The position numbers were made by a program, and so were the translations under genes. This document shows, in pieces, positions 28,521 through 47,213 of a stretch of 64,000 nt of DNA. Numbering within the stretch: position 1 is the stretch's first letter; each line of letters begins with the position of its first letter. This DNA is from Chalara sp. BL73 (Eukaryota > Ascomycota > Leotiomycetes > Helotiales), in NCBI GenBank assembly GCA_918026815.1, contig CAKJVC010000105.1, positions 105,431 through 169,430 on the forward strand, read 5' to 3'. Under the pieces are notes generated by a model. That model was not told the origin of the DNA and searched no databases. It saw nothing but the letters and a program-made list of their open reading frames with translations.

Positions 28521-28534
28521 TTTTTTAACAAAAG

Positions 28535-28946: not shown

Positions 28947-28997
28947 CCGCTTTTCTACGCTGTCTGCTGGCCAGTCTGTGAGCAGGTTGTGCCAAAG

Positions 28998-29088
28998 TTT
29001 CCCCCTTTGTTGAACGTGTTCGAGAGCAGCTGGGCTAATAGGTAAAAGTTACGCCTGGTTGAACACGTTCAACAAGGGGGGGGGGAAA
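28998..29088. repeat. Hairpin element A
   Basis: Two palindromes TTGAACGTGTTC and TTGAACACGTTCAA in inverted arrangement, 39 bases apart. The outer flanks TTTCCCCC and GGGGGAAA also pair. Located between the GC-rich block and the 1179-aa gene. Confidence 0.75.
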
Positions 29089-29228
29089 AAATATAATGGT
29101 GTAAAAACTGCGTTTATGTAAGCGCGCCGTGTAGGAAGCGCAAAAGCAAATACAGAAAAACGAAGCATGCGCTTTCGAGATTATTTGGATAAAGGAGCCA
29201 TGCCAGGGCCATTATCGCTTTTATTTCA

Positions 29229-32200
29229 ATGCCTCGTCGTAAGCTGTCTCCAAGATCAAGACGTGCTGCGGCCACGGCGCGCACAAATCGATGGCGGCAG
29301 CGGGTTGCGACGCAGCAAAACCAAAACAGACAGCCTGGGCAGTTTTTGAATACCCTACCACGTAGCCAACAAGCAAAAGTTCCGACAAACGAGCATAGTA
29401 GGAACTCGGAGACAGCTCAGCCAAATACTCAAAGCGCCGCGGAACGGGTTGGCTCAGCTGTGGCCAGCGCCGAAGTTCGGCCATGTATTAGCGGACCTCC
29501 AAGCCTGGATCAGGATGGAAGCAGCCGGCAACCATCTGTTGTAGGATCCAGGCGATCTAGTCGGCAAAGCTCAAGCCGAGCCCACAGCCGGATCAGCGAC
29601 TACTATCGCGTCTCGAAGTCGGCGTCTCCTTTGGCGGCACAAACTGCTGGCCGCCAGCGAAGCAAAGCACCATCTCTAACACCACAACGCGCAAGCGGCG
29701 AAAGCGCAGCTAGCTTTGCTATTATTATCGACTATAATGCGTCTCTACACCGTACCCAAACTCTAAGCGACTTCAGTAGCTATACTTTAAACGATCAGGA
29801 CGTCGACGAAAGCGACGATGCCGCCGCTCAAGAGCAACTTCTTCAAGAAGAACGCACGCTTGACATCGCAACTCAGCTAGGTCAGCATTTGCTCCGGTTT
29901 CGCGGGTGCGAGCTCGAAGCGCACGGCCGGGCACAAGATCGCCACTTTCAGGACCTGCGTCGACTTACCAACCACTATTCGTTGGCCGACCTTCAGCTCT
30001 TTACCGGGCAAGTGCCCAACGTGCTTGGATCTTCCACGCTTTTGCAGCACAACAGCCCTGAGCTGACGCAGCCCATTGACTGGGCCCGCATTTTTGAAGG
30101 CAACCATGCAGAAGCCGATGAAGGGGAAGAGGAGGAAGACGAAGCGCGAATCCATGTTTGTCTTTATAAGTCAGGGCAAACCCACCGCCCCATGGTCATC
30201 CAGTACGATGTTGACAGCGTGCTGGGGTACGCTAGTAGCCTTGCATTTGCAAAGCAAGGGCTGATGGTAAACCTGGCGCCCCAATTCCACTCTAACCTCC
30301 GGACCAACCTGCACCTTTTTACCTACGTTACTCACGATACCCCGCGAGGGCCTCAACGGCTCCGGGTCAAGCTGCACCAAGTACCTCATTACTGCCTTGG
30401 CTATTTAAGCCAACAAGCACATACCCAGGTTTGTGTCTTCTTCCCGCGGCAATGGGACAAGCACAAGCAGACCAACTTCCCTGGGCAAGGCCTAGACGGC
30501 GAAAAGCACAAGCTGCTGCGGGTATGGACCGATGAAATCCTACTCCCGGCGATCGCCCGTTACGCTACCTCTGACATTGGCCAACATATGCCTTCTTCGT
30601 GGCGGCAGGCCCGCTTAAACGCCCGAGCTCACTACAGCGAAGCGAATACGCGGCAGTCCAACATGAGCTATCAGCGGATGCTTTATTCTGATTTGCAGCC
30701 CGACACCCTGGATCTGATCTGGCGCGATATACAGGATCGCCTTGGCGCGCCGGAATATGCTATATACCAAGGCGCGTATCTCTTCTTTTCTAGCAAAAAT
30801 ACCAAAGTTAAGTACAAAGCCGCTACGCTGGCCGGGATGTGGGAGAAGTTCGGTGCAGTGCTGTATGCTGCACTTGACTTTCGGTATCTTAACAAAGACC
30901 GAATTTGGCTTGACCTGGGCAAGGAAACCGCATGCGCGGACTGGTGCTTGCCACAGCAGGACCTGTCGCCCAACCAGGCGCCCGCTACATATTTGATGCG
31001 ATCTTGCTGTATCGAGGCTTTTTACCAGTGGTCGCATTTCGGAGAGCCTTCATCACGAGCCAAAAAGACTGTGTATGTGCCGGCGATGCTTGGTGAAACC
31101 TATGATGTAACTGTAGAAATGTCCCCTAACTCTATGAAGCGAAGCGAGGGTTGGATATTCTACCAGATGTACAACAGCTATAAGGAAATGACAGATGTTG
31201 CCAAAACAAAGCCATTTCGGAGCCCGTATTTGAAGCAGCTTGCCTGGGACGCCAAAGTGCGCGGCATGATCGAGCAAGCCGGCGGCCGCCCCGTTATCAG
31301 CGCCGCTCGAGTTCGGGCAAATTATAGCAACAGCAAAACTAGACTGGCCGGGGCGCTTTCTGATGGCCGCAAAAAGTCGTATGGCGTCCGCGAAGAGCAT
31401 CGTATTTCTCTTACCTTTTTCCATCGGATGCAAGACGGCCTTATAGCGGCTGGTAACTGGGAGCAGCAACCAAGTCAGAATGCTACCCCGCATCCGTTTT
31501 GGGAGCTCCCGAGCAGCTTATTTACCGCATTTTTGGAATACAATGCGAACAAGTTCCTTTACGCTATTGAAAAAGCCCTGGCTTTGGCCGCGGATGGCTT
31601 GATCAGCTACGAGCGCTGCAAAATTATTGCCATGCTTCTCGACGCGGTCAAGTACTGTTACGACACGTCTCCCCTGTCCCGCGAAAGCGGCTTATGGAAG
31701 GACCGGTACCGGGTCAACGAAACCGGTCCTTTTAGGCAGGGGGTTGGGCTCCAGCAAACGATTCATGAATCGGGCTATGGCTGGCTCTTGCCCAAGGTTG
31801 ACTGGCAGCAGCTGGTATTCCGGCCTGAGCTTACGCAAGAGATTCGGTACAACGAGACCGCTTTATACGATACGTATCGAAAGCGGTGGGCGGCAGTGAA
31901 AAACGTGAAAGACGATTTTCAGCGGCTTGAGGTCGCTCACGGGTGGTTCGGCTTATATTGTGCCAACCCGCCGCTGGCAGATTGCGTGCTCGAGTTTATT
32001 ATTACTCTTGTTATTCACCGCTTTCGCAAAGACGTTTTTCAAGCTATCAAAAAAGATATTCGACCCGAGTATCAAGAGGCAGCGTTAGCGGGCAGGGTTA
32101 TGCTTTGCAAAACGTCGTTGGAGTCTGTCCTTTTGCCGGGGGAAACCGAGGCTGACCGCCCCTTATACATTGTCGAGGCGAACCGAGCGAAAATCCGCAC

Positions 32201-32768
32201 TCTTACGCAGCTGGTGGACTTTTTATGGGACTTCGACGATGGCCACCAACGCACTCAGTGGGCAGATCGCAGTTACCGTGTACTTTACCAGCGAGCACTT
32301 CAAATTACGCGAATTCATCACGGCGTTGATCAGGCGAAGCTGCTCGGCGATATAGTCAAACGACTGTTTATTGCTACTAATTGGATCGTTCCTTACCCAA
32401 CCGAAACTAAGTTCTTTCGGCGAGGCAGCGGCAACAAGCGCTATTGGATGTCGATTTGCCACCAAGACTGGGTCGATCGTCCTTCCACCGAAACTATTCC
32501 CCTGATCGAGCTGCTGGCTTCCACACTGGATGGCAAACGAAGCTCACAACACTACTTACCCGGCGCGATCATCCCTGCGCGTTCGCGCCGAGTCTCCGAG
32601 TATACGAGTGGCCGGTGGACCCTGTACGAAACTACGTTCCCCTGTGTAATGAGCGCTATTCCTGGCGAGAGCGAGTTTTTGGGGAATCAAGCCGACGTAG
32701 ATATGACCGAGCTAGGCAAAATGTTCGCGCGAGAGTGGCAACGAGACGAGGATCAAGTTAACGAGTAG
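29229..32768 (+). CDS. Large intronless protein of unknown family (1179 aa)
   Basis: One open frame with GC-rich codon use, unlike the AT-rich DNA on either side. Residues 1-165 are basic and Arg/Ser/Gln-rich, probably disordered (RRKLSPRSRRAAAT.., SRRSSRQSSSRAHSR). An acidic patch EGEEEEDEA lies near residue 300. The remainder, about 310-1179, looks like a well-folded alpha-rich protein with many Trp and Tyr (CADWCLPQQDL, YLMRSCCIEAFYQWSHFG, TFFHRMQDGL, FIITLVIHRFRKDVF). I recognise no catalytic motif or domain. After the stop an AATAAA at 32879 is followed 11 bases later by 17 A in the genome, as in a reverse-transcribed mRNA copy. Upstream are two copies of a shared module and a hairpin element. 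It could be a replication or mobility protein of the island (inference only). Confidence 0.75.
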   Translation: MPRRKLSPRSRRAAATARTNRWRQRVATQQNQNRQPGQFLNTLPRSQQAKVPTNEHSRNSETAQPNTQSAAERVGSAVASAEVRPCISGPPSLDQDGSSRQPSVVGSRRSSRQSSSRAHSRISDYYRVSKSASPLAAQTAGRQRSKAPSLTPQRASGESAASFAIIIDYNASLHRTQTLSDFSSYTLNDQDVDESDDAAAQEQLLQEERTLDIATQLGQHLLRFRGCELEAHGRAQDRHFQDLRRLTNHYSLADLQLFTGQVPNVLGSSTLLQHNSPELTQPIDWARIFEGNHAEADEGEEEEDEARIHVCLYKSGQTHRPMVIQYDVDSVLGYASSLAFAKQGLMVNLAPQFHSNLRTNLHLFTYVTHDTPRGPQRLRVKLHQVPHYCLGYLSQQAHTQVCVFFPRQWDKHKQTNFPGQGLDGEKHKLLRVWTDEILLPAIARYATSDIGQHMPSSWRQARLNARAHYSEANTRQSNMSYQRMLYSDLQPDTLDLIWRDIQDRLGAPEYAIYQGAYLFFSSKNTKVKYKAATLAGMWEKFGAVLYAALDFRYLNKDRIWLDLGKETACADWCLPQQDLSPNQAPATYLMRSCCIEAFYQWSHFGEPSSRAKKTVYVPAMLGETYDVTVEMSPNSMKRSEGWIFYQMYNSYKEMTDVAKTKPFRSPYLKQLAWDAKVRGMIEQAGGRPVISAARVRANYSNSKTRLAGALSDGRKKSYGVREEHRISLTFFHRMQDGLIAAGNWEQQPSQNATPHPFWELPSSLFTAFLEYNANKFLYAIEKALALAADGLISYERCKIIAMLLDAVKYCYDTSPLSRESGLWKDRYRVNETGPFRQGVGLQQTIHESGYGWLLPKVDWQQLVFRPELTQEIRYNETALYDTYRKRWAAVKNVKDDFQRLEVAHGWFGLYCANPPLADCVLEFIITLVIHRFRKDVFQAIKKDIRPEYQEAALAGRVMLCKTSLESVLLPGETEADRPLYIVEANRAKIRTLTQLVDFLWDFDDGHQRTQWADRSYRVLYQRALQITRIHHGVDQAKLLGDIVKRLFIATNWIVPYPTETKFFRRGSGNKRYWMSICHQDWVDRPSTETIPLIELLASTLDGKRSSQHYLPGAIIPARSRRVSEYTSGRWTLYETTFPCVMSAIPGESEFLGNQADVDMTELGKMFAREWQRDEDQVNE

Positions 32769-32878
32769 TAGCGTAGCCGATAGCTGCTGTTGGTCAACGT
32801 GTTTGTAAACATTCCTCTGCAAGTATATCTTTTTTAACACGCATGTCTTAACCGGATTGTAACTCCTTGTGGGTATTG

Positions 32879-32912
32879 AATAAAAGCCGTTCAGCAAAAA
32901 AAAAAAAAAAAA
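32879..32912 (+). other. Genomic AATAAA plus poly(A) run after the 1179-aa gene
   Basis: AATAAA at 32879-32884, then 17 A at 32896-32912, 128 bases after the stop codon. Consistent with insertion of a processed transcript. Confidence 0.6.
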
Positions 32913-32944
32913 GAGCATAACCACTTGGTTAGGCTGGAAATTTG

Positions 32945-33035
32945 AGGTAGTAAAAACTGCACGTGCCTAGATTAAATGTAAGCAGCGCTCACGGGGTCGG
33001 CTTTATTAGTTTGCAAGCGATGGCTGGATTTGATA
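32945..33035 (+). repeat. Flank A, copy 1 (related to 45225-45315)
   Basis: CGTGCCTAGATTAAA..GTCGGCTTTATTAGTTTGCAAGCG matches the sequence at 45235-45297 with substitutions, and both copies are followed by a hairpin element. Confidence 0.65.
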
Positions 33036-33103
33036 ATTCCAGGCCTTTATTGAACGTGTTCAGATAGAGATCTCTCTGAACGTGTTCAACAAGGGCCGGA
33101 ATA
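33036..33103. repeat. Hairpin element B
   Basis: TTGAACGTGTTCAGA..TCTGAACGTGTTCAACAA with a central GAGATCTC palindrome. The outer ATTCC(A)GGCC and GGCCGGAAT arms pair too, so the stem extends well beyond the core. Confidence 0.8.
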
Positions 33104-33235
33104 TTAGCAGTAGTATGTGCACCACTTATTTTTACGGGAATCCGCTGGTTCTTGTGATATTATACACATAGTTTAATTAGGGGTTAGCAAACCGGCGTGT
33201 AGCCCCGGAGTAACTCCAACTCAAGACTCGTTGCT

Positions 33236-33510
33236 TTTATTTAAAAAGGTTTGTATAAGTTCAGAATTATATTGCTATGCCAAATTTAATACTAATTACT
33301 TATGTACTAATAGCATTTTTGTAAATTATAATTTATATGCAGGTTGCGGTTATACATTACATTGCATTGTATATTCATGTCGTTGAAAGAAGTAGTGGCT
33401 AAGCAGCTTGTCGTAAGGATGTCGGAAAGTGATAGCTATTAAACATATTCGGCGTATAATTGCACGCTTACAAAGCAGGGCACGAAACTTGCATGCAAAG
33501 CAACCCCTGC
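33236..33510 (+). repeat. Flank B, copy 1 (related to 44205-44425)
   Basis: ATATTGCTATGCCAAATTTA..ACTAATTACTTATG.. and AGGATGTCGGAAA..ATAATTGCA..CTTACAAA align with 44255-44400. Both copies lead into uS3 sequence, so the unit duplicated includes the uS3 gene and its flank. Confidence 0.65.
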
Positions 33511-33907
33511 CCCGTCATAACTATAAACCCAATCTATCGCTCCTCACCTGGCGCCTCCTCGCCCTGCTGCTCGCTCGCTCGCTCGTGCCGCCTCTGCCGC
33601 AGCCTGAGCAGCAGCTGCTTTCGCTCCATAATCTTGGCTGATAGGCTGGACAACGCTCTGCTCCTTCTTCGGCTCGATAATTGCAACAGAGTTTTGGTCC
33701 GCTTTCACCTTCGGGGTCCGCTTCCACGCATGATCTTGACCTTGATACCCAACACGCCTTGACGGAAGAGAACGTGGCGAGTGGCCGAGCCGATGAAGTC
33801 TATAGCAGATTGGCAGAAGTAGATCACGAAGCCGTCGGTGAGCTTCACGAGCTTCACGCTCTTCGCACAGGCGGCACGCAGCTTTCCTGAGACGACAACC
33901 TCGCAAC

Positions 33908-34419
33908 CCTTAGCACCGCTCCTCCTTCGGCTTGATAATTGTAACGGAGTCTGGCAAGCCCTTGCTTGGTCCGCTCTTACCCTCGGGGTCGCTCCCACGC
34001 ATGATCTTGACCTTGATACCCAACACGCCTTGAAGCCTTAGCACCGCTCCTCTTTCGGCTCGATAATTGTAACGGAGTCTGGCAAGCCCTTGCTTGGTCC
34101 GCTCTTACCCTCGGGGTCGCTCCCACGCATGATCTTGACCTTGATACCCAACACGCCTTGAAGCCTTAGCACCGCTTCTCTTTCGGCTCGATAATTGTAA
34201 CAGAGTCTGGCAAGCCCTTGCTTGGTCCGCTCTCACCCTCGGGGTCGCTCCCACGCATGATCTTGACCTTGATATCCAACACGCCTTGAAGCCTTAGCAC
34301 CGCTCCTCTTTCGGCTTGATAATTGTAACGGAGTCTGGCAAGCCCTTGCTTGGTCCGCTCTTACCCTCGGGGTCGCTCCCACGCATGGTCTTGACCTTGA
34401 TACCCAACACGCCTTGACG
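33908..34419 (-). repeat. 128-bp tandem repeat x4 within uS3 pseudogene
   Basis: Units start CCTTAGCACCGCTCC at 33908, 34036, 34164 (CGCTTC) and 34292, with very few differences, each coding (minus) the uS3 stretch around [14 protein letters not shown] and [10 protein letters not shown]. High identity points to recent expansion. Confidence 0.85.
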
Positions 34420-34749
34420 GAGGAGAGCGTGGCGAGTGGCCGAGTCGATGAAGTCCTTAGCAGGTTGACCGGAGTGGATCATGAAGCTGTCGGTAAACTT
34501 CATGCTTTCGTACGGGCGGCACGCAGCTTTCCTGAGACGACAACTTCGCAGCCCTTGGCGCCGCTCGCCATGATGAATCGGAGCACGCTATAGCATGCAC
34601 GGCGGACGGCGAGACCGTTGACAAGCTTGTAGCGCAAAGACTCGCACTGGGCGACGGCAGAGAGACCACGGTTTTGGACCTCGGCGGCGTAAAGGGAAAC
34701 AGAGTTTTCGGGGAACTTGAAGCGCTTCTGAATGAGGGAGGTGAGCTCG

Positions 34750-34895
34750 CGGATACGTCGTCCTTTGCTCGCCGAGAACCTCTTGTGTGTGTGTTGCGCC
34801 GATACGTCGTCCTTTGCTCGTCGAGAACCTCTTGTGTGTGCGTTGCGCCGATACGTCGTCTTTGCTTGTCGAGAACCTCTTGTGTGTGTGTTGCG
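34750..34895 (-). repeat. 48/49-bp tandem repeat x3 within uS3 pseudogene
   Basis: GAGAACCTCTTGTGTGTG..TTGCGC..ATACGTCGTC repeats at about 34774, 34823 and 34871, coding (minus) RATHTQEVL. Confidence 0.8.
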
Positions 34896-35143
34896 CGGAT
34901 AATGATGTTGGTGATGGTGGGTGTAACGCGGGCCTCGACACCAGAGTATCCCTCCTCTGCCAATTCACGCTGGAAGAACTCGTTCAACTTAGCGAAAAAC
35001 ACTTCTAAGTTCAACACTTGAAGCATTATTGCAGCTTATTACTATAATAGTTCATAGCTAGTATTGAAATAGCATTTATACCAATTTTTGAGAATGTCTA
35101 ATATTGTGCAAAATACAACAGAACAATACAAACAAAATAATAC

Positions 35144-35170
35144 CAGCCCTTGTTGAACACGTTCAGTTAC
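35144..35170 (+). repeat. Hairpin element C, left arm
   Basis: CAGCCCTTGTTGAACACG followed by TTCAGTTAC. A single arm, with its inverse partner possibly at 35588-35615, about 420 bases away. Confidence 0.6.
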
Positions 35171-35587
35171 TTGTTTGTACTCACCTTTGCTTAATATTCA
35201 CCACCAAAGATAGAAAAGAGCAAGGCTGGCCTAGCCTGTTTGAGTCATAAGGGTCCTCCTCAGGATTAAATACAGCCTGGCTGTTTATTTTCCTCCCACC
35301 ACACCCAAACAATACAACCTCAGAATTCTTGCTCCACAACTCCACCACTTCTACAACCACCAAACCACCTCAGATTTTGCGCTGAACGAGACCACTTTGC
35401 ACTACAGATAGTAAGTAAACCACCTTTTTTTTATTCCATAGTTTGCAAATCCCAGATCCACAAATTATATGCTCTGGGGAGTCCAGGAGAGGCACGATCT
35501 GAGGCTCTGCGGGTAGACCCGAAAGAGGCTGAAGACGGGCCCACTTTTCACATGATCTGGTCCTTTGCACTTTAGGCGTTCAGATTT

Positions 35588-35615
35588 TCCAACTGAACAC
35601 GTTCAACAAAGGCCT
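35588..35615 (-). repeat. Hairpin element C, right arm
   Basis: AACTGAACACGTTCAACAAA followed by GGCC, the inverse of the arm at 35144. If paired, the element encloses about 420 bases. Confidence 0.6.
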
Positions 35616-35685
35616 TGAAAATTTCTGATTTCTTCATTCATATTATTGTTTTCCTGTGCCAGAATGCTGACGGTTGTAGGACACC

Positions 35686-38600
35686 ATGGCGCGTGGTGGG
35701 AAGGCGCGCGGTGGGAAGTTGCCCCCTGGGGCTGGCAATATTCCTATTAGGCAGCTTATCACCAAGAGAACGGCAGTCCCCACCCCAGAATCGTCACCCG
35801 TGCCCTCTGTGCAAGGTTCAGCTGCGCAACCTACCAAAGTATCCACAGGACGAAAGTCCAAGAAGGAGAAAAAAGGTTCTGCGGAAGTGTCGGTTGACGA
35901 CCTTACTCCCCAGCGTAAGCAGCTAAGCAACGATACTTTGACAAAGTACAAGAATGCTGCCAAAGCCACGATTAACGCCAACTCTACAAATGGCCTGGCA
36001 TGGATCCGTGCTGTTCACACCGAATTTCCGAAAGATGGCAGATTAACAGCTGGGTATCTTGGCTTCCACTCCTTGACTAAGCTTCGCGAGTTCTGCAGTA
36101 GTGCAGGTAAGCAGTAATATTTTGAGTTTGGCACCTTGTTGAACATGTTCAGCTATTACTTTGTTGAACGTGTTCAACAAGGTGCTAGTCATACTTTTCT
36201 TTTAGGTTGAACTCAACTAACATGTACACAGAAGCTTTGGACGTGTTGAACGCATGGCGTCAGCGGAAAGAAGCCGGATTTGGCATTCCTGGCAAAACCA
36301 AAGACAACCTTTCTTTCTACCCCAACAAGTTCTATGTCCGCCTGTCTAAAATACGACAAGGTTCCCCTGAAATGCTTTCGATTGAAAACGGCACTTTCTC
36401 TGATTTGGATAGCCCCGAAAGCCAAACTGGTGGTGCAAAATCTGACCTTCGGATGTATGTCGATTATGCAGTTGCAGCTTTTCAACTTCTTCGTCTATCA
36501 GATGCTGATCTAACTACTGATCTTTTTCCACAACACATCCATGATACGACCGTTATGCACGGGCGTTTTGGAGGATTTTGCTTTGAAGACATCAATCGGG
36601 CGATTATGCTGATTCGCTGGTGGGGCAATGAAGTCATGAATGACCGAGGGAAGAAGACGGACAAGGCTCTGACTGCGGCTGCCGACATTGCACACTTGCC
36701 ATACTACCTCACCGATCACGATCTGGCTAATCTCATTGATGATGAGAATCTTAGTGATCCTGGTGAGGGTAGCAACGATGACGAGACGGACGAAGCTCGT
36801 GCGCAATGGCGCTATGTTCATCGGCTTGCTAAATACCGGAAGGATTTCGAGGCGGCTGTTGGAGAGGATGCAATGCCCGAAGATGTCAGAAGCATTCTCT
36901 TTACAAACCCCTCTAAGCTCAACAATACCAAATACAAGGAAAACCTGGGTATTCTGGAAAAGGCTCTAAGTGGGACCTTTCGGAAACGAAGCCGGACTCA
37001 CCTGACATCCACCACTACATTTGAACGCCTCCCGATTGCGGCGACTGACGCACTGAACTTCTGCAAGGAACAGGCCGCTAATGTTCGAATCCTCTGGGGC
37101 TTAGAAGATATCGATGCGATGCGAAAGCAGGCAGCTGTCATCCAGGCAGATACGGCCGCTACATCGTTGTCGTTGAATGATGTTTTGGTCAATCAGCATG
37201 CTATAGAGGCTGAGGGTGCTGGTCTTGACGCGGGTGAGGAGCCCACAACACAGTTTCTGTGGAACATGCGAGCGCAATTGGGGTCCCAGAGCGTTCCGCT
37301 GCCTAGTTTTTTGGCGGCTTGCACATGGGCGGGCATTGATCCTCAAAATCTCGAAATTTCCGAGTCATCATTGGATCATGCTGGCAAAAAGTACCACCAC
37401 AAAGCTCACCAAGTGCCAGGTAAGTATTGGCCCCTGGTGGAACATGTTCAGCAACCCTAACCAAAAACACTGGGCTAATATTACTTCCTAGCTGCACTAT
37501 TTATGGCAATGGCCGAGCTTTCTGCGGTTCATGCTTCTATCGTTGCCCTTGTATGTGGATTGGGTAAGACCTTTGTGTCTCTTCGGCTGATCAAGACACA
37601 ACATGATCGCCAGAAGATCGAAGCCGAGCAGCACCCGGAAGTCCAACATATATTCAAGCCTACGCTTATTTGCTGCCCTAACAATAGCATTGACGTTTGG
37701 ATTTCCGACATTGAGAAATTCTTTCCCGGCATCTTTACCGTCCACCAGTTTTACGGCACTCCAGGATCTATCACGGATCCCGAACGACTCAAGATGCTGG
37801 TAGTTCCCAATCGGGTTGATCGCCTCAATGAAATCTTGGAAGCTTTAGATCCACACGACCCAAATGTAAGTGGACCCTTGTTGAACATGTTCAGCTATTT
37901 CCAGCTTTTAAAAAGGGGGGGGGGGTTGTGTGTTTCTGAACACGTTCAACAAGCCCCCCAAATTTTGTTTTTTTTACTGCCGCGAAACTAACAATTTCAT
38001 AGACCGGACTTACTATTATTCTGACTGCTCACACTACCTGGTGGGGTCGCACTTTGGGTACGCTCGCGGAAAACCAAACTGTTCAACCATGTGTTTCCGA
38101 TGAGTTAGCCGACCTTGCCGAAGAGGATGTCAACTATTCCGATTCAGACGATGCTTCGGATGAGGAACGGGCTCAGACTAAGCGCCGGGACCAAAAGAAG
38201 CGCCGCAAACAACGCAAGAAGGCCGAAAAGGATATGAATACCAGCAAGACCAAAGAAGGTGAAAACCGCGTTTGGGTGTCTCGCTGCAAAGCTGTTTTTG
38301 CGAGAGTTATCATTGATGAGGCGCATGCTCTTCGCAATCCTGACACGCTGTTTGCCGAAAGCATTTTCCAGACTCGGAAAGACAACGTGCATTTCCTCAC
38401 TGCGACGCCTATGCTCAATCATGCCAAAGATCTCCGAGGCTACCTCCATCAGATCTTTAAGGAAAGCTGGGCTCTTCCTGGTGTGTACGGAGACCCCGTC
38501 TCATACGACGAAGACTTCGATCCTGAGAACGTGGATGCTTCGTCGATTAAAGAGAGAACCAAAACCATATCGGTTTTGCCTGAGCGAACGCCGCGCACCG

Positions 38601-41032
38601 AGGAGTTGCATGTTGCGTGGGAGAAACAGATCCGCTTGTGGCTTCTCGATCCTCGTCAGTATGCTCGCTGTGGGCGAGCTGGAGGCTGGTCAGCTGCGAT
38701 CTGCCAGAAAATCATGCCACCAATTTTGAAGATGCTTTTGCTACGGTTGGGGTACGAATCCACGGTTGACTTGGAAGACGGTTCTCCTCCGGCGCGTGTG
38801 GGTCAAGCTATTCCCGACTGCCACATTGTGACGCCTCAGCTACAAATGAATTCTCGCGAGCATACACTTCATGACAACTTTACCCTCGCGCTAGTCAAGG
38901 AGCTTGGGATTGGTGCTGCACACAGCGGTGGTCCGAAACGCGTCGCCGAGACCGCCGGAGCTACAATCGGTGGGAACGAAAACGAAGGCATTCAAGATCA
39001 AGGAGTCTATCGATTCTTAAAACACTCTACCTTCGAACCCCGGTTAGGACATCTTACCGAGATCAACCATCATTATATGTCGGAAGCCGAAAAGCGGCAG
39101 GCAGCCAAGCATCGAGTCAACTCCTGGACCGGTCTCGACTGCGACAATGGCGCATCTTTCTTTTTCAAGCGCACACGAGCAGGACCCGAGTATGCTATTC
39201 CCGGTGACCGCTTGACCATGGCTCAATATCTGGCTGCTTTTTCGGTCAAGTCCCGATATGGACTCGGCGTCATTGGTGAAAATTTGGCGAAGAAGGAGAA
39301 GACGATCATCGTTTTTGAGTTTCCTATGTGCCGGTGGTATGTGGGACCTTTGTTTTTTTTTTGTTTTGCTTCCCTTTTTTTTTTCCCAACCAGACCTTTG
39401 TTGAACACGTTCAACTACTACTATTTACAATTTACTTGAACATGTTCAACAAGGGTCTGGGTTATTGTTTAGGTTTTTTTGGGATTTGAAATTATCTAAG
39501 GTTCCTGAACCTGTTCAACAAAGCACCAGTTTCTAATGTAACACTTCACATAGGCTTTTCGAGACGATCCTTACAACACTCGGCTTCACATTCGTTTCTA
39601 TCACCTCATCGCAGACGACCGAAGAGCGAACGAAGTTGATCAACCGATTTAATGACCCCAACTCCGGCATTATGAATCTCCTGGTCACCACCGCTTTGGG
39701 TTCCGTTTCTCTCAACTTGCAAGAGTCGTCATCCTGCATCCTGGTCCTGGAGATCCCCGGTTCGTTTTATGTCCTGCTGCAAATCCTGGGTCGGATCAAC
39801 CGTATCGGTCAGTCACGGGAACAAATCGTGCATATGCCGTGGATCGATCACTCTTTCGACCAGATTGCACTTCACCGCATTTTTCGGAAGATTGTCCCAT
39901 CTCTTGCCGGTGAAGGTCATGCAGCCGAAAGTGAAGACCCCGAAGGTGCCGCTGAGCGGTTGATGCAAATGTTTCTCGGCCTTAAATTTTCGCATACACC
40001 ACTGCACGACACATGGGCAACGGCCCCGTATGAAGAAAAGGACGCCACTGTGAAGCTGCTGGAAGAACAAAAGGAAGCGGGCTTGACCGGCGGCCCGGAC
40101 TTGGGGGAAGACACTATCATGGACGATGTGGATGTTCCTGAAACCACAGCCAAGCGGCGAACGTACCAGCCCAAACCTATGCCCCGCCAAAACGTCCCTA
40201 CTCGTAAGTTAGACCCGCTATCAACAATGCTGTATATGCTAACACATTTTAAACAGCCCAGAAATCTCAAGCCGTTCGCCCTCTCAGACGTCAGCATAAC
40301 CAGGTTGAGGAGGATGTGCTTCCCATATTGTCTGCTGCCGACCAGGCGCTTTTTGATCAGCTTCGTCTGTTGGAACATGCTAGGCAAGCACGGAGCACTT
40401 TCCAAGGCTCTTCCACCAAGAAAGGCCAGCTGACCAAAGCATACAACAAGCTGTTTAATCCTCTGAAGGATCAGCAGCTGGTGACCGAGGCTGTCCGGTT
40501 CTCCCCAGTCGCAGGAATGACAGACGAAATGGTTACCCTTTGGGATCATACGGACGCTGCCCAGTCTGGCCCACCGCCAAAGAAGCCTAGAGTATTGTCG
40601 ACTGGCAGTACAGGCACCGGCTCTCCCGTTCCCAAACCCCGCCCTCCCCCAAAGTCAAATACGCGATCCAAGAAACCGAAGCGTAATCTTCCACCAAGAA
40701 AAAAGAGCTCAGGTCCATCTCGACCATCTCCCACGTCAGACGACGCGTTTTTGGCAGAGATGGATGAGTTAATCAACGATTCAGCTGCAAAGTTGTCCAA
40801 TCCCAGAGTCACTGAATCCGATGAGGAATGTAGTAATGATGTTAGTCCAGATACCCCAGCAGATGAACAGCCGCAGGAGACAGCCGCAGGAGACAGTTCA
40901 GGTTTATCAGATGACGAAGAGCTGCCGGACCCAGGGAATGACCTTCATCCAGGTACACCAGCAGGCGAGGACCCGATGGAGGCAGCAAACGGGGATGGCG
41001 ATCATTATGACAACTCCGTTGACAAGGTCTAG
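35686..41032 (+). CDS. SNF2-family (superfamily 2) helicase-like protein, 6 exons, about 1580 aa
   Basis: Exons 35686-36106, 36232-37419, 37492-37865, 38003-39336, 39554-40203 and 40257-41032. All five introns are GT..AG and in phase. Helicase motifs in order: GLGKT (motif I) at about residue 560, DEAHALRNP (II) at about 765, FLTATPML (III) at about 794, then in the second lobe TTALGSVSLNLQ (V) and LQILGRINRIGQ (VI) at about 1185. This order and spacing fit SNF2/Rad5-like DNA translocases acting in chromatin or recombination; the motif I lead-in CGLGKT differs from the usual DMGLGKT. A basic/Ser-Pro N-terminus (1-90), a long unrecognised region (140-540), an acidic/basic insert near residues 690-745, and a Pro/Lys/acidic disordered tail (1370-1580) surround it. 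No RING was found. Introns 1-4 contain hairpin-family elements; intron 5 (53 nt) does not. Confidence 0.8.
36131..36185. repeat. Hairpin element D (helicase intron 1)
   Basis: GCACCTTGTTGAACATGTTC, a short loop, then GAACGTGTTCAACAAGGTGC: an almost perfect hairpin of about 20 bp. The outer GCACC/GGTGC differ from other copies yet pair with each other. It lies wholly inside intron 36107-36231. Confidence 0.9.
37425..37479. repeat. Hairpin element E, partial (helicase intron 2)
   Basis: TATTGGCCCCTGGTGGAACA then TGTTCAGC keeps one palindrome. The second is lost, but a matching outer arm TGGGCTAATA at 37470-37480 still pairs with TATTGGCCCC. Inside intron 37420-37491. Confidence 0.55.
37871..37960. 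repeat. Hairpin element F (helicase intron 3)
   Basis: GACCCTTGTTGAACATGTTC and GAACACGTTCAACAAGCCCC flank an 11-G run. Inside intron 37866-38002. Confidence 0.8.
39388..39527. repeat. Hairpin element G plus an extra arm (helicase intron 4)
   Basis: AACCAGACCTTTGTTGAACA..TGTTCAACAAGGGTCTGGGTT (39388-39464) pairs through the outer AACC-AGACC/GGTCTGGGTT. A further single arm TGAACCTGTTCAACAAAGC lies at 39505-39523. Both sit in the 217-nt intron 39337-39553. Confidence 0.85.
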
Positions 41033-41112
41033 CCAGTAGCTGAGGAAAGCTCAGAGAAAGGCGATGACTAGGGTTTCTCATAAAGTTTTTTTTTTCCTAA
41101 ATCTTTGGTATG

Positions 41113-41174
41113 TGGACCTTGTTGATCGCGTTCAGATAAAATCACTTATTTGAACATGTTCAACAAGGGCCCTC
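41113..41174. repeat. Hairpin element H
   Basis: GGACCTTGTTGATCGCGTTC with two substitutions in its left palindrome, and TTGAACATGTTCAACAAGGG on the right. 80 bases after the helicase stop codon. Confidence 0.75.
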
Positions 41175-41597
41175 CAAAACCAATATATTATATTTTCTTT
41201 TATTACTATGTTAACTTCACCAGACGAATCGCGATAGTGGAGAGTTTTTCTCAAGGGGTATTCGGGGTTCAGCTAGTTAGGAATACCAGAACTCATTTTT
41301 TTTCCAGATATTTTGACTCTTACATTCGGTGAAAAATATGTAAACCTTAGTGCGTAAAGTAGTTGAAATGACATAAATATGCTGTAAATAACCACAGGCT
41401 TAAATAGCTCTGTACTATACCTAGGTTCAAAATAGGCAGATTTAATATCGGTACAGTCGAGCAAACACATATTGCTATTAGGCTATTGGTGGTATCCAGA
41501 CTTGAGCAGTTTATCTTTTCTACTTTCTAGTTTTGTAACATTATTGGGTATACAATGATATTCGCTAGAGTTATTTATTGTCAAGTTCATGTTTTAG

Positions 41598-41655
41598 GCT
41601 CTTTGTTGAACATGTTCAAAGGGATATTTTGTTGAACGTGTTCAACAAAGGGCTG
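41598..41655. repeat. Hairpin element I
   Basis: CTTTGTTGAACATGTTCAAA, loop GGGATAT, then TTTGTTGAACGTG and TTCAACAAAG. Both palindromes intact. Confidence 0.85.
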
Positions 41656-42097
41656 CAATCAATACTATTCTTAATCAAAAAGCGACGTTTTATCAAAACG
41701 CTATTTAAGGAAAGTATGAGTAAATTCCATCTTGTATTTCCTACAACTTCAGCTGCTTTATGTTTCGGCAAATAACTTATGGTTGCTGGCACATCGGCAA
41801 TCAGTAAATGATAGCAGACATAATGTGTCTTACATATACAGTAATTTGGCCTGGATAATCGCATAACGGAGGCCCATATATATCACAAACTTTGTAAGCA
41901 ACCGGATAGTGCCGTTTGCAATAACCAAGAGATCCAGTATTTAACTTTTCTAAGTCTCACCCGTATTACATGTTTAGAATAAACAACAAGAAAAAATATT
42001 GAAGTTAATAGTAACTTAGTTTTATACATTAAAAGCAATTCATTCGCTTAATACTATTTACGCTTGCGGCTACGAAAGTCAAAATGCAATTCAAGTA

Positions 42098-43015
42098 TCA
42101 AGCTTCTTCAAGATGTTCTATGGGAACAGGGTCTTGTTGCTCGGCAGGGTCATGCCCGCCACATAGCTGTTGAAGCCACAGCGGGCACTGCGATGCTTGC
42201 CGATACGGCGCCGGAAGCAAGATATTCGCGGAAAACAGCTCTTTTCGATCATATGGGCACCGTGGTCCATCCGGATGCGAGTGGTCGAAATGGCTAGCCC
42301 ACTTTTTAATATGCGTGTCAAAACAAGACCGGCCAAACACGTGCTTGCTGTGGCAACAAAGCTGCACAGGATGATGAGGAGGGTCGACCGTTGAACAGTA
42401 CGGCTGATAGCAAATAGGGCATTCCTGCTCGTCGTCCGGACCAAGGTCGTCCGGGTCCAGATCCAGGCAAAGCTTGTTCGCGCGCATGTAGCGTAACGCA
42501 TTTTCGCCGAGCTGACCTTCCCACTGTTCAAGAATCCAAAACGTTAGCTTTTCCCGTTCTATAACTTTCCGAAGTTTTAGCATTAGCAAGATTTGGGGTC
42601 GGGTTAAGGGCGGCAGGACCAGCCGCACCGTGGCCCAGTACTGAGTTTCCATCATTATGTAAAGCTGTCGAACCGCGCGTGCTCGAGGCGGAGTTAACAT
42701 ATCATATGCGAGGTTTACAAACTCGCTGAGCTGTTCCGAGATATTTGGTTGCGTGTATACACTTGCGTGCTTCCACGGATCGAAAAGAAGATTTTCTTCA
42801 ATGCGATCTAAGTGGTTAGGAGCGGTATACGGCTCACCGTCTCGAATCGGATCTCGGCGGTCAAGCATACAATCATCACATAGCTGGTTCTTGAATGCAA
42901 GCACTTTCAAGCTGTAGTGTTGGCACGCGTCCGGATCTGGTTGTTGACATGGCCGAGAATAGATTTCGCTAGTGTGCGAACACACCGGCCAGTGTAAAGT
43001 GTATGTAAGACACAT
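42098..43015 (-). CDS. RING-finger protein (305 aa)
   Basis: A single intronless frame starting MCLTYTLHWPVCSHTSEIYSR. The N-terminus is Cys/His-rich (C2..C12..H14..C22..C32, then CDDCMLDRRD), resembling a small zinc-binding leader. The middle is helical. Residues about 200-262 form a RING: CPICYQPYC, then CCHSKHVFGRSCFDTHI and RCPYDRKEL, with the C-x2-C / C-x-H / C-x2-C pattern. RING domains usually recruit ubiquitin-conjugating enzymes, so an E3 ligase or an interaction module is likely (family knowledge). Substrate unknown. Upstream at 43255 is the module shared with the 1179-aa gene. The C-terminus is acidic (EQQDPVPIEHLEEA). Confidence 0.8.
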   Translation of the reverse strand: MCLTYTLHWPVCSHTSEIYSRPCQQPDPDACQHYSLKVLAFKNQLCDDCMLDRRDPIRDGEPYTAPNHLDRIEENLLFDPWKHASVYTQPNISEQLSEFVNLAYDMLTPPRARAVRQLYIMMETQYWATVRLVLPPLTRPQILLMLKLRKVIEREKLTFWILEQWEGQLGENALRYMRANKLCLDLDPDDLGPDDEQECPICYQPYCSTVDPPHHPVQLCCHSKHVFGRSCFDTHIKKWASHFDHSHPDGPRCPYDRKELFSANILLPAPYRQASQCPLWLQQLCGGHDPAEQQDPVPIEHLEEA

Positions 43016-43360
43016 TGTGCGTTACGTAAAGTGGAAGTGATTGCAAATAGTAGCGAGTTTGTAATTGTTGAGTTGGAGTTGCTGAAGTTCGAGTATTTTT
43101 TCTCTGCGAGTTATTTATTTATGGAGAATATGTTAATTGTTCATACAAAACGTGAACAACGTAGTTTATTCCAGAACTACTTTCGCTTTATTGTAGCTGG
43201 CTTTACGCTCCGCTGTTTTCTCCGAAAACCATGCTACTCGGCCATAGCGCCGCTAGCTATTCGCAAGATGCGCTAGTCTTTAAACAGTAAACGTAAATAC
43301 TACGTGACTATTTTATTTTTATTAATTGCTTATATTCCGCCGCAGCGTTTTGCAACGAAA

Positions 43361-43434
43361 AATATTAGGCTTTCTGTTGAACATGTTCAATAGCACTTAT
43401 TTGTCGAACGTGTTCAACAAGGGGCCTAATAATT
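43361..43434. repeat. Hairpin element J
   Basis: AATATTAGGC at the left and GCCTAATAATT at the right pair outside the core palindromes TTGAACATGTTCAA and TCGAACGTGTTCAA. Clear example of flanks that pair yet are unique to the copy. Confidence 0.85.
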
Positions 43435-43800
43435 ATTTGCTTAGTTGTTAGAAAGTTTTCTATCAAAAAAAATCAAAAACAAGTAAAAAGGCAAAAGCTG
43501 TCACGTCGCGTGCTCCCAAGCACACGTGACGCAAATTAGACGAGCTCCCCGAGCGCCTCGTGTATATATAGCCTGCTCTCTTCGAGCTCCCTCTTCCTTC
43601 CTCAGCTATAGATTCTCGTATTGCACCACCGTTGCCCTCTGTATCTGTAGATCCACAGCGCGTGCCGTGACAAAAGCCAAAGCGGTCTGGGCGAATCAAA
43701 ATGCAGCGGGACAACAAGAAAAACGAAATAGCTATTTTACTATTTGTTCATTATATCAAATCTTAGTAAAAATACCAAAAAACAATACAAACACAATACC

Positions 43801-43858
43801 TGGCTTTCGTTGAACGTGTTCAGCTAAATATTTATTGAACATGTTCAACAAAGCCCTA
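43801..43858. repeat. Hairpin element K
   Basis: GGCTTTCGTTGAACGTGTTC..TTGAACATGTTCAACAAAGC. Both palindromes intact, loop of about 17 bases. Confidence 0.85.
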
Positions 43859-44204
43859 TATTTCTTTTAGTATATGTGCTTGTTTTATTGTTTGTGTATT
43901 TTAAATTATTAGTTTTTTTTGTAAGTATTCTTAAATTATATAACGTATATTAAAAAAAGTATCAATAAAAGCTTGTGCTATGCGCAAAATCTGCCCAATT
44001 GCATTGGTTCAGAAAAGATTGATTTACTAAGCAACTATGTAAAAGGTTCATTAACAGACAGGGCTCAACTCATTTATTAATAACTAATTATTTTACACAA
44101 AGCAATAGCTTTACAGCTTAACACGTGACCCAGCCATATGCTTTACAAGTAAGCTACACTTGCCAATTCTTAACAATATTCGTTAAATAATAAATATACG
44201 ACTG

Positions 44205-44429
44205 GTTGCTTCTGTTCAATAAGTTTATGTAAGCTGAGAAGTATATTGCTGTGCCAAATCTAATACTAATTACTTGGGTAATAATAGCATTTATGCAAAG
44301 TATAATTTATATCCACGAGTATACAATGTCATGTTGTAAAGATGTCGGAAAAGGTAATGACTAAGCGAGATTCTGTATAATTGCAAACTCACAAAAGCAA
44401 GCTACGAAACTTGGATACAAACCAATCCT
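44205..44429 (+). repeat. Flank B, copy 2 (related to 33236-33510)
   Basis: TATTGCTGTGCCAAATCTAA..ACTAATTACTTGGG and AAGATGTCGGAAAAGG match flank B copy 1. It precedes the second uS3 copy. Confidence 0.65.
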
Positions 44430-44962
44430 CGCGCTTCTCCGTCTCTTTTTACGCCGCCAAAGTCCAAAACCGTGGTCTCTCCGCCGTCGCCCAGTGCAAG
44501 CCTTTGCGCTACAAGCTTCTCAACGGTATCGCCGTTCGCCGTGCATGCTATAGTGTGCTCCGATTCATCATGGAAAGTGGTGCCAAGGGATGTGAAGTTG
44601 TCGGCTCAGGAAAGTTGCGTGCTGCCTGTGCGAAAAGCATGAAGTTTACCGACAGCTTTATGATCCACTCCGGTCAACCTGCCAAAGACTCCATCGACTC
44701 GGCCACTCGCCACGTTCTCTTTTGTCAAGGTGTGCCGGGTATCAAGGTCAAGATCATGCGTGGAAGCGACCTCAAAAGTAAAAGCGGACGAAACAAGAGC
44801 TTGCGAGACTCCATTACAATTATCGAGCCGAAAAATGAGCAAAGCGTAGTTCAGCCTATCAGCCAGGATTACGGAGCGAAGGCAGCTGCTGCTCAGGCTG
44901 CGGCGGAGGCGGCATGTGCGAGCGAGCAGCAGGGCGAGGAGGCACCAGCTGAAAAGCAATAA
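44430..44962 (+). pseudogene. rps3: Ribosomal protein uS3, C-terminal two thirds
   Basis: A continuous + frame from [17 protein letters not shown] through [42 protein letters not shown] and [11 protein letters not shown] to the tail [21 protein letters not shown] and a stop at 44962. Nothing before residue about 95 of uS3 is present in this orientation: the N-terminal part follows at 44965-45172 on the opposite strand. Dead as a ribosomal gene unless fused to an unseen start. Confidence 0.8.
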
Positions 44963-44964
44963 AT

Positions 44965-45172
44965 TCGGTGTTCTCGGGGAACTTGAAACGCTTCCGAATA
45001 AAAGAAGTAAGCTTGCGGATGCGCCGTCCTTGTTCGCCGAGAACTTCTTGTATGTATGTTGCGCGGATAATGATGTCAGTGACAGTTGGTGTAACGCGGA
45101 CCTTAACGCTAAAGTAACCCTTCTCTGCCAAATCACGCTAAAAGAACTCGTTCAACTCGGCGTAAAAGAGCA
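44965..45172 (-). pseudogene. rps3: Ribosomal protein uS3, N-terminal third, inverted
   Basis: Minus-strand reading gives FYAELNEFF, a stop, [56 protein letters not shown] and then diverges exactly where the + strand copy ends. It is the missing N-terminal part of the copy at 44430, turned around. One in-frame stop (Gln to TAG-type change) near 45140. Confidence 0.8.
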
Positions 45173-45224
45173 GTTCAGCCAAAAGAAAAAGCGTAACAGC
45201 CTGACCGTGCCGGACAATTAGAGT

Positions 45225-45315
45225 TTGAGGACTATACGTGCCTAGATCTAATAGTAAACCGCGTTTAAAAAGTCGGGTTTATTTGTTTGCAAGCGGCAGC
45301 TAAAGTTCGCACATT
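45225..45315 (+). repeat. Flank A, copy 2
   Basis: CGTGCCTAGATCTAAT..GTCGGGTTTATTTGTTTGCAAGCGG corresponds to 32945-33035 and is likewise followed by a hairpin element. Confidence 0.65.
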
Positions 45316-45317
45316 CT

Positions 45318-45350
45318 TAGTCTTTGTTGAACGTGTTCAACAAGGGCCCA
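45318..45350. repeat. Hairpin element L, single palindrome
   Basis: TCTTTGTTGAACGTGTTCAA then CAAGGG. Only one palindrome, as if the loop and second half were lost, or an ancestral single unit. Confidence 0.75.
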
Positions 45351-46210
45351 AAATACAAGCAGTGATATATGCCGGGTTGCTGTTGTTTTTATGTCAACGC
45401 CACAACACGAATCGCTTTGTGAATGCGCAGTATTTTGAACAGTTTATAATTGGCTGTCTAAAATTAATACCAACGTAATGTCTAAAGCACCCTTGCTCAC
45501 GGTTGGCTTTTGACTCGAAAGTTATTGCGCTTATTGGCTCTTTGGGAAAAGATACCAACAGAAAAACCAACAGTGGATTCGCAAAGAATCCCAACGCTTT
45601 GCTTACAGTGGCTTTTGAAAGCAATGTTAACATAGGAGCTGCTTCGCCTCGAAAAATGTCAAGTTGATAGCTGTATTCTCAAGCTATGCTGCAGGAATGC
45701 AAATGTTTTGTAATATATACTTTGTGGTATATACTATTACTTATTTTTATTTGCTTATATTTACAACTAGCTTCTTTTGCAAGCATAATCACGCCTCGGC
45801 CGGCTGCCTAGCCTTGGCATTGCCACGCCAGGTGACCCATTTATAGTTTATTTTCTTTTTCGCATTTCCAACCAAACTTTTCAACAGCTTTTCTTATCCT
45901 TTTTTCAAGTTATAGCCACTTCCTTCACAGTCAACTCCAGAAAACTTTCTATTTATATCAAGAAACTCTTTTTTCAATCCTCAGGATTGTTACAGCCTCG
46001 TCCGCCAGTGATTTCGACGCGTTGCTACTGTTGATTCAAATTTACTCCTGGGTTGCTTTTGCTTTATTCAAGTATAAAGTCAAAGTGTTTCCGACTTTGT
46101 ACCAATATACTACTACACTGTCTCAACTGATTTTTCTGTTAACAATCTCAAGTAAGATTCCTTTTTTTACTTATTATCCCAAATTTATTTTTACATTTTA
46201 ACTCGCGACT
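45351..46210. other. Upstream region of small secreted protein
   Basis: No gene is supported. A TATAAA at about 46074 and C/T-rich stretches 45870-46160 suggest the promoter and leader of the gene at 46211. Confidence 0.4.
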
Positions 46211-46501
46211 ATGCAACTTTCTTTGCTTGTTGTTGCTGCTACTCTTTTCCTAAGCTCACTTGCACTTGGCAACCCAGTCCCAGAGCCGGCTAAAGCAGTT
46301 AAAACATCACCCAGAGTAGGCACGGGTGCTCGCACCAAAGGGAAGTCACTCGGCGTATCGTCTAAATACCGCATTATTTGCAGTGGTGGCATGTACGATA
46401 CCTGCTTAGCCAACTACGTTGACAACAACAACTACTGCGATGGCTATGGAGTCTACCACAGCCTTAGCGATACCTGCCGAGAAAAATGCGGATGTCAATA
46501 A
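46211..46501 (+). CDS. Small cysteine-rich secreted protein (96 aa)
   Basis: MQLSLLVVAATLFLSSLALG is a standard signal peptide (cleavage about residue 20). A basic pro-like segment follows (residues 21-52), then a compact C-terminal module with six cysteines at 57, 65, 76, 89, 93 and 95, enough for three disulphides. Size, leader and cysteine-rich end fit fungal defensin-like or effector-type secreted peptides. The family is not recognised and no activity is claimed. Single exon, start at the first ATG. It stands alone at the right edge of the hairpin island. Confidence 0.65.
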   Translation: MQLSLLVVAATLFLSSLALGNPVPEPAKAVKTSPRVGTGARTKGKSLGVSSKYRIICSGGMYDTCLANYVDNNNYCDGYGVYHSLSDTCREKCGCQ

Positions 46502-47035
46502 ATGTAAGTTATGTCCAGTCGACCTGGTAGTGTCTAAAAATAACCTCAACGCAGCTATACATCCAACTTCTTTACTTATGCCCGAGACCAACGTAACCAC
46601 AGCGACCATTGACATTATTTGGCACAACGTTTACCGTCGTGAGCAGGATGATCAAAGTTTTGTTATATTTCGACGGCGGACTACTACAACTATCGAGCAT
46701 ATTTTAAGCGAATTTGTCAAGTTGATTGCAACAGGGATCTTTGAGCAAGTGATTAGTGTTAATGCATCTAAGCACATGTTTTGTGTTACAGTTGCTTGCA
46801 CTAAGCCGGTAAATGAAGTTATCGAGTTGATTGCAGCGGTTGGATAAATTTAGCACCGTGGTATATGTATTTGGCCGTGTTTTTGTTTTTAGATTGTTTT
46901 GATTTTTTTTGATTTTAGAAAAGGAATACTGGAGTTACGGTCGTCTGCTTTAAATAAACACGTTATCCTGATACTATATTTTATTATGTGTACAGTGATT
47001 AAAATACTTTTAAATGCAAAATTCTCGAAGCACTT

Positions 47036-47059
47036 AGTCTTTGTTGAACGTGTTCAAAT
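47036..47059 (+). repeat. Hairpin element M, single palindrome
   Basis: TTAGTCTTTGTTGAACGTGT then TCAA. A weaker related TGTACATGTTCAAGC lies at 47108-47122. Confidence 0.65.
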
Positions 47060-47182
47060 AGCTCAGACATTTATTTACATCAAAAACTCAGCAATTTCGG
47101 GCTTTTGCTGTACATGTTCAAGCATTTATTTATTATTTATTTTCAAGTTAATCGGCTATTTACAACATACTTTGAACAATAC

Positions 47183-47211
47183 CAGACCTTTGTTGAACGT
47201 GTTCAGCTATT
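47183..47211 (+). repeat. Hairpin element N, single arm
   Basis: CAGACCTTTGTTGAACGTGT then TCAGCTATT. This is the last member of the family in the window. Confidence 0.7.
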
Positions 47212-47213
47212 TG

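Follow-up and report, generated by a model that had tools for sequence, protein, structure and literature searches.

Dispersed palindromes of a subtelomeric element in Chalara sp. BL73 as candidate recognition sites with one core dialect per lineage

Why does one short palindrome recur between 29.0 and 47.2 kb of a 64-kb stretch of fungal DNA and nowhere else in it? The stretch, here called the window, comprises positions 105,431 to 169,430 (forward strand) of contig CAKJVC010000105.1 of Chalara sp. BL73 (assembly GCA_918026815.1); w-coordinates are positions in the window, and C98 denotes both the window's contig and its copy of the subtelomeric repeated element in which the palindromes lie. 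The window contains 23 exact matches to GAACRYGTTC, all within w29012-47204, against a mean of 0.15 and a maximum of 2 in shuffled sequence, and 0 of 100 shuffles reached the observed count. The original prediction had placed about 14 TTGAACRYGTTCAA palindromes, mostly inverted pairs, at 29.0-47.2 kb: the clustering and its coordinates hold and the paired sites are real (nine pairs), whereas the exact count is 23. We give an even chance to the reading that these palindromes are dispersed, element-specific recognition sites in duplex DNA for a dimeric factor, with one dialect per lineage. The sites are clustered and lie in non-coding DNA, several of their places and their flanks are shared with a distant relative of the element, and the two lineages carry differing cores that do not mix.

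Locus grouping and coding boundaries are our own, and several P values given below follow post hoc choices. Together with three one-mismatch cores (the left core of H, G2 and M2), the 23 cores form 16 loci, nine of them pairs (A, B, D, F, G, H, I, J and K) and seven single or irregular (C1, C2, E, G2, L, M/M2 and N). Core centres are 25-28 bp apart in six of the nine pairs (B 26, D 25, H 28, I 26, J 27 and K 25 bp) and 35 (G), 49 (A) and 55 bp (F) apart in the others. The central dinucleotide of the 23 cores is GT in 10, AT in 8 and AC in 5, a variation limited to the two central bases because the search pattern was built that way. The wider class GAACnnGTTC has 27 members in the element, compared with 5 for the runner-up class of 4+2+4 palindromes. 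Across the 58.7-Mb genome the strict half-unit GAACRYGTTCAACAA occurs 59 times, 55 of them within element copies; the four outside lie on C69 (twice), C103 and C112, and the reversed control pattern gives two. The genome-wide hairpin family that a scan had been proposed to reveal was rejected on this count, the half-unit being nearly confined to the copies of one element rather than dispersed. Rfam gave no match at the gathering score.

The palindromes lie outside the coding sequence of the element, and the two are arranged as follows (palindromes carry no strand).

28523..47337, plus strand: subtelomeric repeated element, about 18.8 kb, delimited from blastn copies (C169, C187, C162, C124, C88) and left junctions
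29004..29078: pair A, upstream of ORF1
29229..32768, plus strand: open reading frame 1 (ORF1), 1179 amino acids, no Pfam family, four relatives at 54-60% amino acid identity
33044..33095: pair B, downstream of ORF1
35147..35166: single C1
35593..35612: single C2, upstream of the SNF2 gene
35686..41032, plus strand: SNF2-type gene, six exons, 1580 amino acids in our model, with SNF2-rel_dom and Helicase_C
35686-36106, 36232-37419, 37492-37865, 38003-39336, 39554-40203, 40257-41032, plus strand: exons of the SNF2 gene model
36133..36183: pair D, SNF2 intron 1
37432..37451: single E, SNF2 intron 2
37875..37955: pair F, SNF2 intron 3
39395..39455: pair G, SNF2 intron 4
39505..39524: G2, one mismatch, SNF2 intron 4
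41116..41169: pair H, left core with one mismatch, downstream of the SNF2 gene
41600..41651: pair I, downstream of the RING-like gene
42098..43015, minus strand: RING-like protein, 305 amino acids, weak RING match (E 0.011, below the Pfam cut-off)
43371..43423: pair J, upstream of the RING-like gene, with the longest outer pairing
43804..43854: pair K
45321..45346: single L, both arms
47038..47121: M with one-mismatch M2
47187..47206: single N

None of the 23 cores is coding, though coding sequence makes up 10,018 of 18,808 bp (P 5e-6, by the 16 loci). The introns of the SNF2 gene, 604 bp in all, hold 7 of the 23 cores (P 7e-4, by cores); introns 1-4 carry palindromes, and 5 of 16 loci are intronic (P 0.004; 4 of 15 without G2, P 0.016), leaving 11 of 16 elsewhere.

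How old are these sites? The window ends with its contig, in TTAGGG repeats, and therefore at a chromosome end. Beyond the window, blastn detects four nucleotide-level copies of the element, on C169 (91-95% identity to the window element in the main blocks), C187 (89-95%), C162 (85-89%) and C124 (88%, partial), and C88 holds a diverged partial copy. Contigs C162, C124 and C88 enter telomere repeats inside the element or shortly beyond the matching part, the telomere of C187 lies on the equivalent side, and C169 terminates without a telomere, 2.6 kb beyond the element. A sharp left end, GTCGAGGGGCGG, is common to C98, C169, C187, C124 and C88, where it adjoins five different flanks; C162 is without it. 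The right boundary at w47337 lies in AT-rich DNA and may not be the true end, because C169 and C187 remain alike across the last 2,882 bases of C169 (96.7% identity). Every copy that reaches a locus carries its palindrome, namely 16 of 16 loci on C169, 16 of 16 on C187, 14 of 14 on C162 and 2 of 2 on C124 (48 of 48 in total), as well as 2 of 2 on C88, and the sites are therefore older than the copying of the element. The comparison of empty sites that had been proposed yielded none in these 48 comparisons and the two on C88, and hence no readable target duplication.

The differences between the copies and the window are mostly C>T and G>A changes within CpA, CpT and CpC contexts (938 of 1,235 differences on C169, 1,254 of 1,549 on C187, 2,001 of 2,261 on C162 and 555 of 633 on C124), a pattern that resembles repeat-induced point mutation (RIP-like). 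At the left core of H, whose centre is GC, C98 reads GATCGCGTTC and C187 GAACGCGTTC, and C169 and C162 show additional C>T or G>A changes; a GC centre also occurs in the leader palindrome of a copia-like retrotransposon described below. The ancestral core of the GAAC dialect was probably GAACGCGTTC, and the two variable central bases are where the CpGs of such an ancestor would lie. As a separate observation, the changes are strand-biased on C169 (298010-317158 against window 28536-47337; 786 C>T versus 152 G>A) and near balance on C187, C162 and C124. At the telomeric end of the window (w63750-64000), TTAGGGGTCGAG repeats precede the TTAGGG telomere, and GTCGAG is common to them and to the left end GTCGAGGGG.

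The relative on contig C39 reveals a second dialect. This contig carries a distant, decayed SNF2 relative (26-32% amino acid identity over three pieces, 32% over exon 4), a RING-like relative (28%) whose strand relative to the SNF2 gene is opposite to the C98 arrangement, and a partial ORF1 relative (20%). Its palindrome is GTACTAGTAC, present 16 times on the whole contig, at 8,654-29,519 (about 21 kb), and 15 times in the 18 kb examined, where the next palindrome class counts 3. The cores do not mix: GAACnnGTTC is absent from the 18 kb of C39 read, and GTACTAGTAC from the window. Compared with GAACGCGTTC, GTACTAGTAC differs by two symmetric double changes, repeated across sites, while the flank consensus TTGTT/AACAA is common to both lineages. 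All 15 C39 sites examined are single palindromes, and single palindromes, which the original prediction had proposed as precursors or decay products, may accordingly be the older form.

Several places are shared as well. Introns 3 and 4 of the SNF2 gene lie, in our reading, at the same codon in C39 and C98. In C39, introns 2, 3 and 4 each hold one GTACTAGTAC, 21, 17 and 20 nt past the donor, compared with 20, 17 and 66 nt for the first palindrome of the C98 introns; a CCTTTGTT that precedes a T-run, 18 nt past the donor of C98 intron 4, is perhaps a lost site. C39 intron 1, whose donor is damaged, likely holds a site too. If C1, C2, D, E, F and G are matched, as we propose, with C39 positions 17818, 18279, 18727, 19935, 20368 and 21644, the successive distances from C1 to G are 440, 546, 1299, 443 and 1520 in C98 and 461, 448, 1208, 433 and 1276 in C39. 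Several places are therefore old, whereas the core is not. Four GTACTAGTAC on contig C40 are spaced by 314, 242 and 467, compared with 314, 249 and 468 at the end of C39. Genome-wide, GTACTAGTAC occurs 60 times (about 56 expected by base count; reversed control, 100), and the 50 of these 60 places that were listed are scattered, apart from those on C39, C40, C71:101 and in copia.

Does the pairing of the arms matter in itself? The original prediction held that flanks outside the cores differ between copies and are complementary within each, and the five flank pairs that it quoted, for A, B, D, G and J, are present in the sequence. We compared the nine pairs using true versus permuted partners in position windows picked after inspection, which makes the P values generous. 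The arms share CCYTTGTT directly beside the core, and at positions 1-8 outside it 57 of 72 match versus 55.4 after permutation; pairing there is not copy-specific because the consensus is common to the copies. Matches exceed permutation at positions 7-12 (35/54 versus 25.4, P 0.002), 9-12 (25/36 versus 15.5, P 8.5e-4), 9-16 (37/72 versus 28.0, P 0.017) and 9-20 (47/108 versus 39.0, P 0.05), with no excess at 11-20 (30/90 versus 28.4) or 13-24 (34/108 versus 34.1). What survives of copy-specific pairing is therefore an excess of about 4 nt, some 9-12 nt out, and pair J, the one long outer-pairing case; the 15 C39 sites show no flank pairing (positions 6-20: 57/225 versus 61 permuted). To our reading this is a small local effect that fits the origin of some pairs by short inverted duplication. 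Snap-back or template-switch copying, in which an inverted flank is extended into an inverted pair and the palindromes have no function, would account for the matching at positions 9-12 and the long flank of J, and could still be the route from singles to pairs; as a full explanation it is highly improbable, given that it covers the pairs but neither the same core at 16 loci nor the existence of singles, the placement in non-coding DNA and the dialect of C39. Selection for hairpins in transcripts or introns, acting in splicing, stability or small RNAs, is also improbable, if less so. It draws on the seven intronic cores and on an alignment of seven pairs (A and F left out for their long loops) in which 87.4% of cells pair and the covariation score lies above that of 492 of 500 shuffles (8 of 500 reach it), most of the signal coming from a single pair of columns, 9 nt away from the core, that shows C-G, G-C and A-U. 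Yet both-sided changes number 4 versus 3.9 in shuffles (327 of 500 as high), and compensatory change between copies was rejected as structural evidence, RIP-like C>T and G>A mimicking compensation in palindromes. The unpaired single sites of C39, the kept palindrome centre, which would be the loop, and the tolerated A-C centres suit duplex DNA better than RNA hairpins.

Two further explanations turn on what lies outside the element. A Ty1/copia-like retrotransposon (C69:194810-200516, with a relative on C103; named by us from its frames) has a D-like pair within the coding spacer, a GAAC-type palindrome in its leader and a GTACTAGTAC 274 bp from the D-like pair. The 274-bp distance recurs on C69, C103 and C112, and from it alone we infer that C112:333247-333530 is copia. 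Among the matches listed, all nine 15-mers that copia shares with the window element lie at the D-like site, and of the 15 shared with C39, 11 lie at GTACTAGTAC and four are AT-rich runs. The two dialects of copia could reflect host factors, freeloading or target taste. If one or two paralogous host regulators bound the palindromes, with the element and copia exploiting or suffering them, the sites present in copia would fit; we nevertheless regard host-factor sites as fairly unlikely. Host genes hardly use the palindromes, because the strict half-unit is so rare outside the element copies and GTACTAGTAC stands near chance level; a DNA query with hairpin D retrieved pair I as well as D itself on four copies of the element, and did not find copia at E <= 0.01; and host regulators leave unexplained why one element lineage uses one of two host dialects. 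It is quite unlikely that the palindromes descend from a mobile hairpin like a miniature inverted-repeat transposable element (MITE), that multiplied within the element, prior to the element's own copying, and survived in non-coding DNA alone. The similar units, their hairpin potential, their non-coding placement and the D-like sequence in copia would suit such an origin, whereas C39 has another core in the same introns, two of them at near-equal offset, and neither feature of MITEs that we tested, genome-wide dispersal and empty sites with target duplications, was found. The suggestion that a mobile element inserts into pre-existing hairpins is likewise not supported, the palindrome being present in all 48 comparisons and 4 of 59 half-units lying outside the element. 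As a side observation, near position 52240 of C187 the left end of the element lies inside a GAACGTG palindrome of a copia copy; the other four left junctions do not.

If the palindromes are indeed recognition sites for a dimer in duplex DNA, each site would span about 20 bp, TTGTT plus the 10-bp palindromic core plus AACAA, kept at set places in non-coding gaps upstream and downstream of genes and in introns, and each lineage would have its own core, GAACRYGTTC in the window element and GTACTAGTAC in the C39 relative. The core would have shifted in concert as one dimeric DNA-binding protein, reading all sites of its lineage, altered its specificity; a concerted core change at kept places is what would be expected of sites tracking one such dimer. 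Where sites are double and hairpin-like, one ancestral palindrome would have been duplicated locally, in some cases together with a short inverted flank. The reader might be encoded by the element itself, ORF1 being the first candidate: its N-terminus is basic and conserved in the alignment of relatives (P0001-P0004, from a protein database search). The frame has no stop codon in the window, against 13-36 in the four other copies spanning the whole of it. No relative of ORF1 appeared among the viral contigs or the genome contigs searched, and an AlphaFold model (mean predicted local distance difference test score, pLDDT, 34) was set aside. Such a reader might work with the co-encoded SNF2 ATPase, whose relatives in the PDB include RAD5 and ISWI, and with the RING-like protein on the chromatin or transcription of the element, and the gene set, with ORF1's basic N-terminus, would point to the element's own chromatin. 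It is a speculative and, as a whole, rather unlikely scheme that an element-encoded dimer reads the lineage's palindromes and recruits the element's own SNF2 and RING-like proteins, keeping its chromatin active (or moving the element), so that dialects separate relatives and copia freeloads on two lineages.

Several observations weigh against recognition sites of this kind. We know of no protein that binds the palindromes, and ORF1 has no recognised domain, with no match in Pfam or the PDB. Intron 5 of the C98 SNF2 gene (53 bp) is without a palindrome. Distances outside C1 to G agree poorly between C98 and C39 (B to C1, 2103 and 1588; G to H, 1721 and 835), and 14 kb of C39 hold 12 extra places with one or two core mismatches, which are probably mostly chance. 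Core invariance is partly by construction, because cores were found by exact match. Copia bears both dialects, which would not be expected of a code strictly private to the element, and the flanks match within pairs, which recognition in duplex DNA does not need. The dialects are read in two lineages, of which the C39 copy is decayed, and, for four other weak ORF1 relatives, the three loci examined (L032-L034) have no outstanding repeated palindrome that would make a third; CTTAnnTAAG, found three times in L033, was dropped as a candidate, its three centres being different.

Other features of the element and its surroundings concern these questions less directly. A search of the protein database at E <= 0.001 gave no relatives of the RING-like protein; an intact relative (39% amino acid identity, no stops) lies at C75:42884-43777, where SNF2 exon searches gave no match, and may be either the host's original version or a third lineage. 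Two further frames lie within the element.

44381..44962, plus strand: open frame with the ribosomal protein S3 C-terminal domain (PF00189, E 1.2e-21)
46211..46501, plus strand: small, secreted-looking cysteine-rich protein, in our reading of the sequence

Pieces of a ribosomal protein S3 gene occur on both strands (w33527-34970 and w44381-44969), and one set includes tandem units about 128 bp long. An open frame for a MULE transposase (48021-49991, minus strand; MULE, DBD_Tnp_Mut and SWIM) stands immediately on the telomeric side of the element, adjoining tandem repeats; it is excluded from the element because tblastn found no match to it at the other element-related loci examined. On the other side of the element, window 17655-21239 (plus strand) encodes a protein of 1194 amino acids in which a HET domain and, below threshold, TPR matches were detected. 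This HET-domain gene, the introns, the telomere repeat and the RIP-like pattern all suit DNA of a filamentous fungus.

Among known systems, several resemble the element in part. Double-hairpin elements of fungal and algal mitochondrial DNA are adjacent palindromes repeated in one genome. The sites described here likewise comprise two neighbouring palindromes that recur in one genome; unlike those elements, they are nuclear, tied to one element, set at places shared between lineages and single in the relative. Introners are repeated sequences with hairpin potential in several introns, where the repeat is itself the intron and stands at new positions. Hairpin potential in several introns is common to both, whereas here 11 of the 16 loci lie outside introns, and C39 has introns in common with the element. 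Telomere-linked RecQ elements carry a gene for a RecQ-type helicase and, like the present element, are chromosome-end repeats in one orientation with a helicase-like ATPase; the ATPase here is of SNF2 type and is accompanied by other genes and dispersed palindromes. The domains found in the gene pieces searched include none of the RecQ family and instead SNF2-rel_dom and Helicase_C. Among the papers listed in literature searches, none describes the element or palindromes of this kind in fungi, although a listing cannot prove their absence.

Self-recognition by selfish elements and the splitting of its dialects are known in detail in few cases, among them the VANDAL transposons of Arabidopsis and phage stoperators. 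The present system places two lineages in one genome, with sites that stay in place and cores that differ in concert. One copy has open genes, with which reader and code could be identified and swapped, and the system would allow one to ask if marks of this kind can be borrowed by a retrotransposon unrelated to the element.

VANDAL21 carries a nine-base motif, YAGTATTAY, in introns, intergenic and terminal non-coding regions; it is non-palindromic, forms dense tandem repeats in one orientation and is bound by VANC21, for which binding and loss of methylation have been shown (PMC5735166). VANC6 acts on other VANDAL families (PMC10398659). VANDAL motifs resemble the present palindromes in being specific to an element family and enriched in non-coding regions including introns, with related families served by a different protein; the element matches this with 0 of 23 cores coding, 7 of 23 intronic and a second dialect on C39. 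It differs in that its sites are palindromes, one or two per gap and 1-2 kb apart, with several places common to distant lineages. The stoperators of cluster A mycobacteriophages are dispersed 13-bp sites with a lineage-distinct consensus and a cognate binding protein, mostly oriented with transcription, whose elongation they block (PMC6550527). The shared traits are dispersal over the whole element and a consensus that follows lineage, and the differences are the symmetric core and the eukaryotic element, the asymmetric orientation of stoperators having no counterpart here. In behaviour, VANDAL/VANC motifs and phage stoperators would be the closest to the palindromes of this element, a likeness that lies in anatomy.

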